Assembly: GCA_003155655.1 (NCBI GenBank)
Contig: PMDS01000055.1
Span: 1 to 40,446, forward strand
Direction of reading: 5' to 3'
Source of the DNA: Melioribacter sp.
Lineage (GTDB): Bacteria; Bacteroidota; Ignavibacteria; Ignavibacteriales; Melioribacteraceae
DNA: 40,446 bases
Made by a program: the position numbers and the translations under genes. Positions 6,207 to 38,583 of this stretch are shown piece by piece (position 1 is the first letter of the stretch; each line of letters starts with the position of its first letter). The notes below the pieces were generated by a model. That model had not been told where the DNA came from. It saw only the letters and a program-made list of their open reading frames with translations, and did no database searches.

Positions 6207-6491
6207 ATGAAAAACATTTCGGTATTAAATGATATAATTCCGGTAGGTCAATTCAAATCCAACCTGGCTAAATATCTAAAAGAAATACAAAATAAAAGAA
6301 ATTCTATAATTATCACTCAAAACGGCAAACCTGCCGGAGTCTTAATATCTCCATCGGAATTTGATGATCTTAACCAAACAAAGCTTTTCATTGATTCTAT
6401 TTCGCGTGGTTTATCCGATTCTGGAAAAGGAGAAGTTTTATCAACTTCACAGCTCCGGACTGAACTCCAAAAATCACGAGTTGGTAAGTAA
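6207..6491 (+). CDS. Type II antitoxin, Phd/YefM family
   Basis: The 94-residue protein has the family core: PVGQFKSNLAKYLKEIQNKR, then IIITQNGKPAGVLISPSEFDDL (the beta-hairpin region of Phd/YefM). The N-terminal half should bind DNA and repress the operon; the C-terminal half should wrap the toxin. AAGGA (6195-6199) sits 7 bases before the ATG. The cognate toxin begins 2 bases after the stop but is cut short after about 20 codons, so the antitoxin is an orphan here. A near-palindromic candidate operator overlaps its promoter. Confidence 0.87.
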   Translation: MKNISVLNDIIPVGQFKSNLAKYLKEIQNKRNSIIITQNGKPAGVLISPSEFDDLNQTKLFIDSISRGLSDSGKGEVLSTSQLRTELQKSRVGK

Positions 6492-6493
6492 AT

Positions 6494-6562
6494 ATGAAGT
6501 TATTTTGGACAAAGGAATCGCTTCTTCGGTTACAGGAAATAATTGGAGGAATTGAGAATTGA
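6494..6562 (+). pseudogene. Truncated ParE/RelE-type toxin gene
   Basis: Two bases after the antitoxin stop, an ATG opens MKLFWTKESLLRLQEIIGG, which matches the first strand and helix of ParE/RelE toxins (typical M-x-h-x-W-T-x-x-A-x-x-D-L-x-x-I). After about 19 recognisable codons it runs into the AATTGAGAATTGAG repeat and stops at TGA 6560-6562. The rest of the ~95-residue toxin, including the catalytic C-terminus, is absent nearby. I read this as a toxin destroyed by the insertion or rearrangement that starts at the repeat. Confidence 0.65.
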
Positions 6563-6574
6563 GAATTTAGAATT
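6550..6574. repeat. Left arm of a 25-bp perfect inverted repeat
   Basis: The arm is built from AATTGAGAATTGAGAATTT plus AGAATT and is exactly the reverse complement of 6996-7020. It sits precisely where the toxin gene loses homology. The 421 bp between the arms contain only relics and hairpins. Confidence 0.8.
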
Positions 6575-6578
6575 TTAA

Positions 6579-6671
6579 GAGAAACAATTAAAAGACTGCT
6601 TCGAAAATAAATTTGAATATGATTTTTTTGCGGTGCTTAAACACATACCTAATTTTAATCTTAATAAATAA
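6579..6671 (+). pseudogene. Relic of an HpnC-like (squalene/phytoene synthase family) gene
   Basis: The frame reads QLKDCFENKFEYDFFAVLKH and then stops at TAA 6669-6671. It aligns with QLKNCLKNKFDSGFWTALKN of the hpnC gene 770 bases downstream, with about half the residues identical, and the DNA is clearly similar (CAATTAAA-GA--TGC, AATAAATTTGA). The level of divergence suggests an old duplication or a separately acquired homologue, not a recent tandem copy. A TAA immediately precedes it and no start is present, so it is non-functional. Confidence 0.55.
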
Positions 6672-6995: not shown

Positions 6996-7020
6996 AATTC
7001 TAAATTCTCAATTCTCAATT
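6996..7020. repeat. Right arm of the 25-bp perfect inverted repeat
   Basis: The exact reverse complement of 6550-6574 (AATTCTAAATTCTC and on). With the left arm it brackets a 421-bp segment of relics and hairpins lying between the broken toxin gene and hpnC. Confidence 0.8.
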
Positions 7021-7106
7021 TCTTATTAGTTTTTATTCACCATGCAAAAATGTTTAAGTAGCATTATATTTCATCAATTCATTCAATTAAGTTTAGCGAG
7101 GCTCCC

Positions 7107-7985
7107 ATTTCTCTTGATACAGCATATATTAATTCTCTTCACTTTACAAAATCCCATTACGAAAACTTCCCCGTAGTATCTCTATTCCTTCCCAAAAAAT
7201 TAAGAAAGCACGTTGCTGTTGTATATCAGTTTGCGCGTCAAGCGGACGATCTTGCAGACGAGGGAGAAAACTTAGGAGAATTTGCCCATCGTAGCCTGCC
7301 TGCCGGCAGGCAGGGCGGATATAGAACGAAGAATTTAGAAGAGTACGAACAACAATTAAAGAATTGCCTCAAAAATAAATTTGATTCCGGGTTTTGGACG
7401 GCCCTTAAAAATACTATTGATGAATATCAACTTACACCTCAATATTTTTTTGATCTGCTTTCCGCTTTTAAGCAGGATGTTGTAAAGAACCGCTATAATT
7501 CATTTACTGAAATATTGGACTATTGCACACGCTCTGCAAATCCGGTGGGCAGACTTGTCCTGGAGCTATTTGGTGTCAGGGACGCCCTTACAATCCGCTA
7601 CTCCGATGCTGTCTGTACAGCTTTACAGTTAACCAATTTTTACCAGGATGTTTCAATCGATATTCAAAAAAACAGGATTTACATATCCCTTGATGAAATT
7701 GAAAAATTTGGTGTAAGTCTAAATCAATTCCAGTTAAAGGAAAATAGCCCTAATTTAGAAAAGCTATTGAAATACCAGGTTGATAGAACAAAAGACCTCT
7801 TTACACAAGGGCAAAATATAGTTGACCGGTTACCGGCAAATTTGAAAAAACAAATAAAAATGACTATTCTTGGCGGAGTAAAAATTTTAGATAAAATTGA
7901 ATATCTGAATTATAAGGTAATTAATTACCGTCCAAAACTTTCGAAAATTGATTACTTGAAAATATTTATTAAGGCAATGATTTAG
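7107..7985 (+). CDS. hpnC: HpnC-type squalene/phytoene synthase family protein, unusual start and in-frame insertion
   Basis: One uninterrupted frame reads SLDTAY, SHYENFPVVS, QFARQADDLADEG (first Asp-rich motif, Asp47/48 and Asp51) and later LTNFYQDVSID (second motif, Asp181/185), the order of HpnC, which converts presqualene diphosphate to hydroxysqualene. No ATG, GTG or TTG precedes these motifs in frame; the first is TTG 7515, past the first active-site motif. The most likely start is ATT 7107, 5-6 bases after GCGAGG, giving 292 aa, the usual length. An ATG at 7050 in the same frame is followed two codons later by TAG. Residues 61-72 (HRSLPAGRQGGY) are encoded by a palindromic repeat inserted in frame. 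hpnD follows after 4 bases. The gene is either functional through a rare start or newly crippled. Confidence 0.72.
   Translation: MSLDTAYINSLHFTKSHYENFPVVSLFLPKKLRKHVAVVYQFARQADDLADEGENLGEFAHRSLPAGRQGGYRTKNLEEYEQQLKNCLKNKFDSGFWTALKNTIDEYQLTPQYFFDLLSAFKQDVVKNRYNSFTEILDYCTRSANPVGRLVLELFGVRDALTIRYSDAVCTALQLTNFYQDVSIDIQKNRIYISLDEIEKFGVSLNQFQLKENSPNLEKLLKYQVDRTKDLFTQGQNIVDRLPANLKKQIKMTILGGVKILDKIEYLNYKVINYRPKLSKIDYLKIFIKAMI
7295..7314. repeat. 20-bp perfect palindrome inserted within hpnC
   Basis: CCTGCCTGCCGGCAGGCAGG is a perfect palindrome, far more GC-rich than its surroundings, in a flank reading GTAG...GGCGGATATAG. It encodes LPAGRQ in the hpnC frame and does not disrupt it. A similar CTTGCCTGCCTCGGC occurs at 38569-38583, suggesting a dispersed element. 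Confidence 0.75.
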
Positions 7986-7989
7986 TATT

Positions 7990-8835
7990 ATGATAGATTC
8001 TTCAAAACAAATTGCTAAAGAGAGCAACAGCAGTTTTTATTATGCGTTCTCTCTATTATCAAAGCCCAAACGCGATGCAATGAATACCGTTTATGCTTTC
8101 TGCAGGCGTACGGATGACATCGTTGATGAAGGCGACGAATCCGAAGAGATAAAATATGAACATCTCCGCAAATGGAGAATTGAACTGGAAAAAGCTTTGT
8201 ACGGCGGCACTTCTGACTATCTTCTTTTCAATAAACTTGCCGCAATAATTAAACAGTTTAACATTCCGTTTGAACCATTCTTTGAGTTGATTGCAGGCAT
8301 GGAAATGGATCTGCAGCGAAAGCGTTATCTCAGCCCGGAAGACCTGATGCAGTATTGCTACTGTGTTGCTTCTACTGTTGGTTTAATGTGCATTGAAATT
8401 TTTGGATATAAAAATAAATCTGCCAAAGATTACGCTATTAATCTTGGGCTGGCTATGCAGATGACCAACATTTTAAGAGATGTTAAAAAAGATTCCGACA
8501 AGGGAAGAATATATCTGCCGCAGCAGGATATGAATATTTTTCAGTATTCGGAACAGGATATTTTCCAGAGAAATTATAATTCAAATTTTATTTCCTTAAT
8601 GAAACATGAAGCTGATCGGGCTCAAGGTTTCTTCATTAAAGCAAATGATGCTCTTGATTTTGATGATAAGCCTTCAATGTTCCCGGCGCGCGCCATGCAG
8701 CACATTTATCATAGGCTTCTTAAAAAAATTGAAGTTGAAAACTATGATGTGTTCAATAAGAAAATAAAAGTGGGCACTTTTGAAAAAGCCGCAATTTCTG
8801 TCGGCGTTTGGGCTAAGTACAGTCTTGTTTATTAA
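7990..8835 (+). CDS. hpnD: HpnD-type presqualene diphosphate synthase
   Basis: A trans-isoprenyl diphosphate synthase of the squalene/phytoene synthase family. FCRRTDDIVDEGD (Asp42, 43 and 46) and NILRDVKKD (Asp164, Asp168) are the two Mg-diphosphate binding motifs. In the HpnCDE route HpnD condenses two farnesyl diphosphates to presqualene diphosphate. It lies 4 bases after hpnC and its stop overlaps the hpnE start (TAATG), so the three are cotranscribed. The 281 aa length is typical. A carotenoid (CrtB/CrtM-like) role cannot be excluded from motifs alone, but the hpnC/hpnE neighbours favour squalene. Confidence 0.9.
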   Translation: MIDSSKQIAKESNSSFYYAFSLLSKPKRDAMNTVYAFCRRTDDIVDEGDESEEIKYEHLRKWRIELEKALYGGTSDYLLFNKLAAIIKQFNIPFEPFFELIAGMEMDLQRKRYLSPEDLMQYCYCVASTVGLMCIEIFGYKNKSAKDYAINLGLAMQMTNILRDVKKDSDKGRIYLPQQDMNIFQYSEQDIFQRNYNSNFISLMKHEADRAQGFFIKANDALDFDDKPSMFPARAMQHIYHRLLKKIEVENYDVFNKKIKVGTFEKAAISVGVWAKYSLVY

Positions 8836-10136
8836 TGAAACGTATTATTGTAATTGGCGGTGGATTTGCAGGGTTAAGCGCCTCGGTTTACCTGTCTGAA
8901 AAAGATCACAAAGTTACACTTATCGAATCAGCCCCAAAACTCGGCGGGCGTGCCTATTCACTCTTAAACAAAAAAATCAATGATGTTTATGATAACGGTC
9001 AGCATATAATGATGGGCTGTTATAATGATACTATCTCATTCCTGCAAAAAATAAACTCACTTGATAAAATTTCAATTCAAGATTCCCTTAACATTAATTT
9101 TGTTAAAAAAGGTGGAGAAATTTTCAAACTGCAGGCGCCCAAAAATTTTTATCCGTTTAATCTGGGTTATGCTCTGTTAAATTTTAAAGCGCTGAGTATC
9201 AAAGAAAGATTTAAGATAATAGATTTTATTCTTGATCTTATGTGCTGTTTCTCCTGCGACTTAAAAGATAAAACTGTGCAGGAATGGCTGGAGTGTAAAA
9301 AACAAAGCCCAAATTCAATAAAGTCATTTTGGCAAATATTGGTTGTTGGTGCATTAAACACTACAATTGATAAAGCATCCGCAGAAATATTTCATGAAAT
9401 CCTATGCCGGATATTTCTTGACGGTAATAATTCAGCGTCCATTGTTATTCCAAATGTTGGTTTAACACAAGTTTATGCTGAGGGCGCAGCACAATATATT
9501 ATTGAGAGGAAAGGGAAAATACTTCTATCTGAAAAAGTAAAGCACATTACCTGTAAGGGTAATAAAGTTAAAGAAATTGTTACAGATAAAAACATATATA
9601 AAAATTTTGATTATGTAATAAGTGCAATTCCCGCGCAAGCCTTTGAATATATAATTTGTAATAACTCAAAATTTAAAACACTTCAGGGTATTCCATCCTT
9701 TAATTATTCTCCTATTCTTAATGTTCATTTCTGGTTAAAAGAAAATCCATTTAAGGAAAAATTTTACGGCTTAATTGATTCAAAAATTCACTGGTTATTC
9801 AATCACGGCAAACACATTAGCCTTACAACAAGTGCTGCAGACTGGAGCATTGGTCTTGATAATTCTGATATTATGAAAGATTTTTGTTTCGAGTTGGAAA
9901 ATTATTTTCCTATATTCCATTCAAATTTGATAATGGATTATAAGGTCTTAAAAGAAAAACGTGCCACCTTTATTCCTGATATTGAATCTAACATGGTAAG
10001 AAAAAATTTTTTAAGCAAGTTTGACAATTTGATTTATGCCGGTGATTGGACCAACACAGAACTGCCCTCAACAATTGAGAGCGCTGTTTTGAGCGGCAGG
10101 TTAGCTGCCGGGAAAGTAATCACTGCAAGTAAGTAA
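8835..10136 (+). CDS. hpnE: HpnE-type squalene-associated FAD-dependent desaturase/reductase
   Basis: An FAD amine-oxidoreductase/phytoene-desaturase-like fold. The Rossmann GGGFAG is at residues 8-13, IESAPKLGGRAYS follows, and the C-terminal FAD-contact segment is YAGDWTNTELPSTIESAV. In HpnCDE this enzyme reduces hydroxysqualene to squalene. Its ATG shares the A of hpnD's TAA, which indicates translational coupling. At 433 aa it is the usual length. No squalene-hopene cyclase or later hopanoid gene is in the window, so whether the product feeds hopanoids, sterol-like compounds or carotenoids is unknown. Confidence 0.9.
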   Translation: MKRIIVIGGGFAGLSASVYLSEKDHKVTLIESAPKLGGRAYSLLNKKINDVYDNGQHIMMGCYNDTISFLQKINSLDKISIQDSLNINFVKKGGEIFKLQAPKNFYPFNLGYALLNFKALSIKERFKIIDFILDLMCCFSCDLKDKTVQEWLECKKQSPNSIKSFWQILVVGALNTTIDKASAEIFHEILCRIFLDGNNSASIVIPNVGLTQVYAEGAAQYIIERKGKILLSEKVKHITCKGNKVKEIVTDKNIYKNFDYVISAIPAQAFEYIICNNSKFKTLQGIPSFNYSPILNVHFWLKENPFKEKFYGLIDSKIHWLFNHGKHISLTTSAADWSIGLDNSDIMKDFCFELENYFPIFHSNLIMDYKVLKEKRATFIPDIESNMVRKNFLSKFDNLIYAGDWTNTELPSTIESAVLSGRLAAGKVITASK

Positions 10137-33007: not shown

Positions 33008-33394
33008 ATGGGTCAACAGCAGCTTTTATTAATTGTATTGGGAGTGATTATTGTCGGAATTGCAGTTGTTGTTGGTATTAATTTATTTTCTGCAAATAGT
33101 TCCAGTTCAAACCGCGACGCCATTGTAACCCATCTTTTGACTTTGGGATCCAATGCACAACTTTATTACAGAAAACCGGTACCGCTGGGCGGCGGTGGTA
33201 TTACATTCACAAACTGGACAATCCCGGCTGGGTTATCATCTAATGCAAATGGAACGTTTACGGCTACTGTTACGGCTACATCTGTAACTTTAGTAGGTGT
33301 TGGTACTCAGACAGGTAATGATGGCTCAACAAATGTTAAGGTAACAATGGTTATTGGACCTTATGCAGTTACTTCAACTACTATTAATAATTGA
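33008..33394 (+). CDS. Small pilin-like membrane-anchored protein, copy 1
   Basis: I do not recognise an established family. Right after MGQQQ there is a 23-residue hydrophobic helix (LLLIVLGVIIVGIAVVVGINLF), then a short amphipathic stretch with AQLYYRKP, a GGGG turn, and a beta-rich Thr/Val part (TFTATVTATSVTLVGVGTQ) ending in TSTTINN. This resembles type IV pilins and pseudopilins in layout, but there is no prepilin leader longer than MG and no Glu at +5. AAGGAGAG gives a strong RBS. The second copy 195 bases downstream shares the same plan. Confidence 0.62.
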   Translation: MGQQQLLLIVLGVIIVGIAVVVGINLFSANSSSSNRDAIVTHLLTLGSNAQLYYRKPVPLGGGGITFTNWTIPAGLSSNANGTFTATVTATSVTLVGVGTQTGNDGSTNVKVTMVIGPYAVTSTTINN

Positions 33395-33588: not shown

Positions 33589-33975
33589 ATGGGTCAACAG
33601 CAGATTTTATTAATCGTTCTTTCCGTAATTGTTATTGGAATTGCTATTGTTATAGCGTTAACACTTTTTAGCACAAATTCTACTATTACTAATCGCGAAG
33701 CGATAATTGCTGGTTTAACTAATCTTGCTACTGTTGCACAATCGTATAATATGCATCCTACAAACCTGGGTGGTGGAGGCAATACTTTTACAGGGTGGTC
33801 TTTACCTCCAAACCTTGCATCTACGGCTGATGGTACTTATACTGCTACTGTTACAGCTAATTCTGTAACTATCGTCGGGGTTGGGAACCAATTGGGTAAT
33901 GACGGTTCCACTAATGTTAAAGTAACTATGGTTGTTACTTCAAATGCAATTACATCAACAACTATTAATAATTAA
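33589..33975 (+). CDS. Small pilin-like membrane-anchored protein, copy 2
   Basis: Same length (128 aa) and plan as the preceding gene: MGQQQILLIVLSVIVIGIAI membrane helix, NREAI...LATVAQSY, LGGGGNTFTGWSLPPNL, YTATVTANSVTIVGVGNQ and the end STTINN. Identity is highest in the N-terminus and the GNDGSTNVKVTMV segment. RBS GTGGAG lies 11 bases before the ATG. The 194-bp gap before it is AT-rich and holds a TATAAT box, so it may have its own promoter. Its last codons begin a direct repeat found again at 36357. Confidence 0.62.
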   Translation: MGQQQILLIVLSVIVIGIAIVIALTLFSTNSTITNREAIIAGLTNLATVAQSYNMHPTNLGGGGNTFTGWSLPPNLASTADGTYTATVTANSVTIVGVGNQLGNDGSTNVKVTMVVTSNAITSTTINN

Positions 33976-34092
33976 ACTTACTTAAAGTATTTTATTAAAG
34001 GGGTTAAGAGGCAGTCTGTTACATTCCGGTTTGAGATAATCCGAAATGCTCTTCTCTAAAAAACACTACTTTTGAAGATATTTACGTCTAAA
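33964..34092. repeat. ~125-bp direct repeat, copy A
   Basis: It starts in the last codons of the second pilin-like gene (ATTAATAATTAAAC), runs through GAGGCAGTCTGTTACATTCC and GGTTTGAGATAATCC, and ends within the first codons of the next ORF (GATATTTACGTCTAA). About nine in ten bases match copy B at 36357-36485. Confidence 0.85.
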
Positions 34093-36356: not shown

Positions 36357-36485
36357 ATTAATAATTAAACTCACTTAAAGTGTTTTATTTAGTGGAGTTA
36401 AGAGGCAGTCTGTTACATTCCGGTTTGAGATAATCCAAAATGCTTTTCTCTAAAAAAAACAACTTTTGAGGATATTTACATCTAA
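36357..36485. repeat. ~125-bp direct repeat, copy B
   Basis: Matches copy A (33964-34092). It includes ATTAATAATTAAAC, which in copy A encodes the final residues and stop of a pilin-like gene, and TTGAGGATATTTACATCT, which corresponds to the first codons of the PPOX-like ORF and here runs into TAA. No pilin-like gene precedes it now. Confidence 0.85.
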
Positions 36486-38521: not shown

Positions 38522-38583
38522 CGGTCGGCGCCTACCGACCTCCGTTAACTAACGCATTGCTTGGAGGACTTGCCTGCCTCGGC
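38522..38583. repeat. Palindrome-rich intergenic segment between convergent genes
   Basis: GGTCGG-CGCCTA-CCGACC forms a 6-bp hairpin (38522-38539). CCGTTAACTAACG then recalls the CCGTTAGCTAACGG loop of the element at 6033-6048, and CTTGCCTGCCTCGGC recalls the palindrome inside hpnC. This may be a degraded composite of the dispersed repeats seen elsewhere, and could also act as a two-way terminator. Confidence 0.4.

Follow-up and report, generated by a model that had tools for sequence, protein, structure and literature searches.

The window, that is, the whole 40,446-nt stretch of DNA analysed here, comprises the first 40,446 bases of a 67.5-kb contig belonging to a 4.62-Mb draft genome in 137 contigs. 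An hpnC gene is followed in the window by a second squalene/phytoene synthase gene and an amine-oxidase family gene, which we take to be the usual squalene gene order. A short insert built around a perfect palindrome lies within the hpnC coding sequence, and two heptamer arrays and a fragment of a second hpnC copy are found upstream. The features are as follows.

6546–6645, forward strand: fragment of a second hpnC copy, EELRIENLEF*EKQLKDCFENKFEYDFFAVLKH, carrying the site without the insert (75% identity over 79 nt to the hpnC of relative L040, E 9.7e-10).
6549–6574, forward strand: heptamer array GAGAATT/TAGAATT (GAGAATTGAGAATT array), a dispersed AT-rich repeat in which several of the genome's own palindrome copies are nested.
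6996–7023, reverse strand: another heptamer array, opposite in orientation to the first.
7107–7985, forward strand: hpnC coding sequence (TIGR03464 HpnC, 297.7 bits against an equivalog cut-off of 250.45; SQS_PSY, E 3.6e-57).
7283–7321, forward strand: in-frame insert of 39 nt (13 residues), made of the palindrome plus 12 nt to its left and 7 nt to its right, the placement being ambiguous by about 1 nt.
7295–7314, no strand assigned: perfect 20-bp palindrome CCTGCCTGCCGGCAGGCAGG, encoding SLPAGRQ(G) in the hpnC frame.
7990–8835, forward strand: second squalene/phytoene synthase, HpnD by position (PF00494, E 9.3e-76).
8835–10136, forward strand: amine-oxidase family gene, HpnE-like by position (PF01593, E 7.8e-36).

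Immediately upstream of this group, an antitoxin-like ORF of 94 aa (6207–6491) precedes an apparent toxin-like gene that is cut off where the hpnC fragment starts (6207–6560 in all, both named by eye). Towards the end of the window, two pairs of duplicated segments were observed, 33237–33392 with 33818–33973 and 33990–34091 with 36384–36485, which are 76% and 89% identical, respectively.

The hpnC frame of the window contains no ATG, GTG or TTG before 7515, and an ATT start was therefore inferred, with GAGG at 7098–7101. A standard start codon is also missing from hpnC in six of the ten genus relatives with an HpnC (L034, L035, L037, L039, L040 and L041). Compared across the window's 7098–7109 region and those relatives, the conserved ATT is the best candidate start codon of hpnC, in some cases with GAGG(T) directly upstream; a clear ribosome site upstream of the ATT was not seen in L037, L039 and L040. 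From the inferred start, 292 codons are open. The insert totals 39 nt and thus keeps the frame, so that both Asp-rich motifs remain, and alignment columns D47, D48, D51, D181 and D185 are invariant. To judge by these conserved motifs, HpnC with its insert apparently still works, and the insert probably serves no purpose but is tolerated.

The initial annotation had described a perfect 20-bp palindrome lying in frame inside hpnC, after a DDLADE motif and ahead of the following helix, and had held that it left the frame unbroken. All of this was borne out, the palindrome being exact at 7295–7314, hpnC being open throughout, and the position, which follows the motif QADDLADE, agreeing with an AlphaFold2 model of HpnC (mean pLDDT 91.7). 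In the model, residues 55–62 have pLDDT values under 50 and fall between helices 30–52 and 66–88, so the insert is predicted to form a low-confidence loop joining two helices. The residues coded at the insert in the hpnC frame are DEGENLGEFAHRSLPAGRQGGYRTKNLEEYE. They had been described as about a dozen and as unexpected in HpnC; the insertion was confirmed, the 20 bp of the palindrome being exact, but 13 residues are added where 12 had been listed. In a MAFFT alignment, the HpnC studied here is 13 residues longer at this point than 29 of 29 HpnC sequences of the same genus, family and order; these were the best-scoring loci among the 94 of 96 genomes (own included) with an HpnC match, the remainder being left out of the alignment. 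The solved HpnC structure 4hd1 is also without the insert.

Excision of the 39 nt (7283–7321) gives GGAGAATT/TAGAACG, coding for GEFRTKNLE. The rejoined pre-insertion site, GGAGAATTTAGAACGAAGAATTTAGAA, is two mismatches away from the heptamer repeat, a match equalled by 0.14% of the 27-nt segments drawn at random from the window (5000 draws). As RNA the palindrome folds into a perfect hairpin (−13.9 kcal/mol), and in the whole 39-nt insert this hairpin is held within an outer stem, AUUUGCCC/GGGCGGAU. The insert is 39 nt and not 20, and the 19 nt outside the palindrome count against an explanation by a 20-bp unit. As to where these 19 nt came from, a tRNA-Glu 5′ end was considered and its pattern is absent from the genome; the best match to the genome's 37 own tRNAs was equalled by 11.8% of shuffles, and a tRNA source was rejected.

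Within the window, no second copy of the 18-mer of the palindrome was found at up to three mismatches, a level at which it occurred in none of 100 shuffles of the window. The related partial copy that had been proposed near 38570 did not hold up, as TTGCCTGCC is half an arm with a non-complementary right side. Beyond the window the palindrome is dispersed, with 17 sites in the genome and copies in other genomes and phyla. The exact 18-mer occurs once in the own genome, and the 17 sites at up to three mismatches compare with one for the reversed pattern; among the 15 of these sites with loci, two (L012 and L015) look like chance by eye. The palindrome was detected in 17 of 96 relatives' genomes. 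A sample of 395 genomes from the phylum included 28 with exact copies; the reversed pattern turned up in a single genome, with six occurrences. A longer form occurs in records of Buchananbacteria, Parcubacteria and Omnitrophota, whose genomes have 3, 24 and 3 exact copies, respectively, and the palindrome was also present in 35 stretches of viral contigs.

The 18-mer is flanked by C (by G at its other end) in 98% of 92 distinct exact sites. Outside the resulting 20-mer the flanks show no more than a purine bias (next base A 45%, G 30%), and 55 of the 92 sites have no symmetric extension past 20 bp. Short palindromes of other types were also observed, including a TCCGTTAGCTAACGGA type and a TCCGCC...GGCGGA type (around 1500 of L003; 6029–6050 of the window), one of which shares a heptamer array with a CCTGCC palindrome inside a T9SS protein gene. 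LPAGRQ was not found in the literature searched, the coverage of which excluded most subscription journals and bioRxiv preprints. With the same coverage, a sub-string of the palindrome occurs in two papers, both with unrelated titles, and the titles and abstract openings listed for Rickettsia elements, in-frame repeats, GIY-YIG with tRNA and candidate-phyla palindromes held no description of the element.

Several other protein genes contain the palindrome in an open frame. For hpnC, RsmA and a XerD-like recombinase the in-frame assignment is based on alignment gaps, while for TsaB, DnaE, PurL and the T9SS domains it is based on position in an open frame; open frames through the palindrome in viral contigs were left out of the gene count, because several frames are often open there. 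In Parcubacteria genome G097, the palindrome lies in RsmA/KsgA, with a 7-residue gap against 6ifs, in DnaE, outside the region that aligns with the solved chain, and in TsaB at residues 109–129, a stretch flanked by aligned segments that the solved chain bridges with a single residue. This unaligned stretch of TsaB, at about 20 residues, is longer than the palindrome. The purL copy, in single-contig genome G070, is in a divergent linker, and the XerD-like recombinase shows a 5-residue alignment gap. T9SS sorting domains carry the palindrome in an open frame at three loci of genome G017 (L202, L203 and L205). These are three different T9SS-sorted proteins with the same sorting-domain place, reading INYS[LPAGRQE]LP or IRYS[LPAGRQE]LP, and gene conversion may have spread the copies among them. 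Open-frame copies in the own genome lie in a GH18 protein that has a T9SS sorting domain (L003) and close to the end of a protein matching a glycosyltransferase only weakly (L218).

To define the unit, occupied sites were compared with empty ones. At L210, the tRNA-Leu sequence GCCGGGATGGCGGAATTGGTAGACGC is present both with and without the palindrome (97.6% identity over 82 nt). An excised length of 20 was best in 16 of 16 site/partner pairs, although this count is biased, because the partners were found with 20 bp removed. A two-flank search with no assumed length found a partner for 21 of 180 sites, and a net length of 20 was the mode (11 of 21). The other 10 sites gave scattered lengths only, several of them at tandem or self-similar loci, which counts against a 20-bp unit. 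No target duplication was seen at length 20 in the empty-site comparisons. Taken together, the comparison of these sequences indicates an exact 20-bp unit that would insert without target duplication. In RsmA the insert amounts to 7 residues (21 nt), which may mean that the unit varies by a single base or that rarer 21-nt events were retained there by selection.

Where the palindrome lands was examined through the heptamer repeat and through hairpin loops. The heptamer repeat occurs at 76 genome sites at up to one mismatch, against three for the reversed pattern. At the insertion spot in hpnC, the native codons match the array with no or one mismatch in nine of ten genus relatives, the tenth (L042) having four. 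An array (up to two mismatches) lies within 40 nt of the palindrome, on one or other side, at 5 of 15 own loci, compared with 0.36% of 4000 random 40-nt window segments and none of 4000 flank segments. Hairpin loops, tested at excised sites with a stem of 6 or more, contained 3 of 13 own-genome sites (controls, 5 of 260) and 8 of 121 sites in other bacteria (controls, 45 of 2315). No enrichment was found at viral-contig sites (2 of 62 against 22 of 1219).

A further group of sites is in tRNA sequence, which was detected by BLAST against 48 local tRNAs at 12 of 200 sites and at none of 1252 controls. In 11 of the 12 the tRNA is interrupted between nt 10 and 26, and in L201 at nt 50. The tRNA sites inspected are partial copies, and a downstream copy was called as tRNA by ARAGORN in most of them, L126 and L130 being the exceptions. 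Run on 90 excised sites, ARAGORN recovered a single tRNA (L117) because the other copies are partial. One viral contig has a whole tRNA-Met with the palindrome in its variable loop.

A GIY-YIG domain was encoded 17–188 nt downstream of the palindrome, in the same orientation, at 7 of 147 exact sites. The search used a home-made profile from four seeds (E up to 1e-4), with a truncated ORF at L017 seen by eye only. All six such ORFs submitted to Pfam match PF01541. About 0.07 upstream coincidences would be expected on the rough assumption of 10 such genes per 4 Mb. No GIY-YIG domain was found in the available sequence within 1500 nt of the remaining 140 of the 147 exact sites, which counts against a GIY-YIG link. 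In a typical cassette, a tRNA 5′ part bearing the palindrome (mostly in the D-arm) is followed by a GIY-YIG gene, starting from near the anticodon position, and then by a second tRNA copy; L146 is atypical, with the gene after an intact tRNA. A GIY-YIG gene stands beside a duplicated tRNA part at L041, L052, L059, L126, L130, L172, L186 and L210, and by eye at L017, but not at the hpnC copy of the palindrome. Viral contigs were scanned twice for GIY-YIG genes, which yielded nothing in one scan and only the already known L126 contig in the other.

Loci chosen for HpnC, without regard to the palindrome, offer a separate view of these cassettes. Among 30 hpnC loci, all four tRNA-Leu-half cassettes carry the palindrome (L041, L052 and L059 twice), one of them in degenerate form. 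In L041 and L059 it lies at nt 15 and nt 23 of the same tRNA, so these are probably independent events. Of 13 hpnC loci scanned, 9 have a tRNA-Leu(CAG) upstream of the gene (L034–L037, L039–L041, L043 and L047), as do L052 and L059. In the own genome, tRNA-Leu(CAG) is at C1:41137, not upstream of hpnC, and the window has no tRNA. The own genome has 12 GIY-YIG matches, six of which are downstream of a called tRNA, two of these in tandem after one tRNA-Asp; no palindrome was found within 220 nt upstream of the six. One own copy of the palindrome (L007, the same as L230) lies about 30 nt before an ORF with a weak GIY-YIG match. At L318, a cassette recognised by eye, a degenerate palindrome is in the first tRNA part and none is in the second part, nearest the GIY-YIG gene. 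A tRNA-Gln half-cassette from Parcubacteria (L325, 1370–1480), likewise recognised by eye, has a different, longer GC-rich hairpin in the D-loop at the equivalent place.

The reading we favour, and hold to be probable on the strength of these sequence comparisons, is that hpnC received a small non-coding mobile element, a perfect 20-bp palindrome, along with 19 nt of flanking sequence and tolerated it, and that this element moves as a hairpin or as a filler of breaks, perhaps through GIY-YIG nucleases. The palindrome and its flank would have entered heptamer-like codons of hpnC that encode a loop. The lack of target duplication and the over-representation of hairpin loops among bacterial genome sites lead us to infer that the element either moves in the form of a single-stranded hairpin or fills a break. 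The tRNA-half cassettes, in which the palindrome lies in the 5′ tRNA half, mostly in the D-arm, encode a small GIY-YIG nuclease that may mobilise the element. That the nuclease itself moves the palindrome is the weaker part of this reading, for which the GIY-YIG cassettes are the best lead. More tentatively still, the palindrome could belong to a cross-phylum system in which an exact 20-bp unit is moved by, or marks the cut site of, small GIY-YIG nucleases residing in duplicated tRNA 5′ halves, with off-target insertions adding loops to HpnC, RsmA, TsaB, DnaE and PurL.

Two simpler accounts would make the insert an accident of the data or of a dying gene. An assembly or binning artefact is extremely improbable: the draft assembly is split over 137 contigs and several copies elsewhere are close to contig ends, but other copies are found in single-contig genomes (G070, inside purL, as well as G057 and G068), diverged copies exist, and the hpnC copy is 7.3 kb into its 67.5-kb contig. 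Nor do we find it likely that hpnC is a decaying pseudogene with the insert as one of its lesions. Decay would agree with the lack of a standard start before 7515, with the absence here of the tRNA-Leu neighbour that relatives have upstream of hpnC, and with the fragment of a second hpnC copy upstream, whereas the 292 open codons, the invariant Asp-rich motifs and a score above the HpnC equivalog cut-off all speak for an intact gene, and the missing start is shared by six of ten genus relatives with HpnC.

The other two accounts accept a real element and differ over what moves it. It could be a REP-type element of the GTAG/CGTC class that is mobilised in trans by a Y1 (RAYT) transposase and lands in genes by chance, which we regard as rather unlikely. 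Lack of target duplication is compatible with Y1 chemistry, Y1_Tnp was detected in seven of eight genomes searched, with 10 matches in the own genome, and GTAG stands directly 5′ of the palindrome in the hpnC copy. The length, palindromic form and occasional intragenic insertion also fit REPs as described in the accessible text of PMC3733652. However, a conserved unpaired tag is absent from the 92 exact copies, only 2 of 30 Y1 loci examined have a copy at up to three mismatches, and G105, with 13 copies, gave one weak Y1 match. Parcubacteria G097, with 24 exact copies, gave no Y1 match, although that genome may be incomplete, and this weakens Y1 transposase as a universal driver. Alternatively, the palindrome could serve a function in the tRNA-half GIY-YIG cassettes, breaking the D-arm and preventing self-cleavage, misfolding or recombination loss, with all other copies, that in hpnC too, being stray by-products. 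This is a possibility of some substance, though we do not think it probable. It draws on the four hpnC-locus cassettes, each with the palindrome in its tRNA 5′ half and between them showing two distinct positions within one tRNA, on further cassettes with the palindrome in G075, G090 (two), G097, G098, G105 and viral L126, and on the different hairpin at the equivalent place in L325. Against it, the cassettes outside hpnC loci were mostly found through the palindrome, the second tRNA part of L318, nearer the gene, is without one, and the six own GIY-YIG matches after a called tRNA, of 12 in all, have none in the 220 nt upstream, while L230, another match, does.

If the favoured reading of a small mobile palindrome is true, it describes a very short mobile unit that is all hairpin and occurs in several phyla, with exact empty sites from which movement and target choice are directly readable. 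It would also link REP-like palindromes with nucleases outside the Y1 transposase family that is usually invoked, and offer a concrete route to short new loops in proteins, including replication and ribosome-modification proteins.

Intragenic palindromic insertion is already known for Rickettsia palindromic elements (RPEs) and for REPs (in the accessible parts of PMC2229807 and PMC3733652). According to the former, RPEs are 105–146 bp long and occur in Rickettsia between genes, in frame in conserved protein genes and also in RNA genes. Both they and the palindrome studied here are dispersed palindromic repeats found in intergenic regions and in frame inside conserved protein genes. The initial annotation's analogy with the Rickettsia elements stands as far as an apparently tolerated in-frame palindromic insertion is concerned, since relatives lack the insert and the palindrome recurs in the genome, in other phyla and in open frames of other conserved genes. 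It does not extend to identity: the unit is 20 bp, in an insert of 39 nt, and not a long stem-loop of 105–146 bp, and it occurs in several other phyla, with empty sites and with connections to tRNA copies and GIY-YIG genes that are particular to it.

REPs, in the portion of PMC3733652 available, are palindromes of 20–40 bp in GTAG and CGTC super-families, found mainly between genes and at times within them, genes of DNA replication and repair among these. The likeness is in length, palindromic form and occasional intragenic insertion. The differences, measured against that same text, are the lack of an unpaired GTAG or CGTC end tag, with only the purine bias beyond the 20-mer in 92 exact sites, the low copy number (17 own sites at up to three mismatches), and Y1 transposase not having been found in G097, which has the most copies among the genomes counted but may be incomplete. 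A third comparison is with SegB, a free-standing GIY-YIG homing endonuclease of T-even phages, which cuts within tRNA genes, with tandem tRNA-segB repeats arising (PMC13096335, in part). The likeness here is a GIY-YIG nuclease beside tRNA genes, whereas SegB is phage-encoded, and the accessible text of PMC13096335 does not contain the string 'palindrom' and describes no truncated tRNA half with an inserted hairpin. As both the RPE length and the REP tag are lacking, the element is classed apart: the palindrome works like an RPE or a REP while falling under neither definition, and is best placed as a variant acting like these two families.
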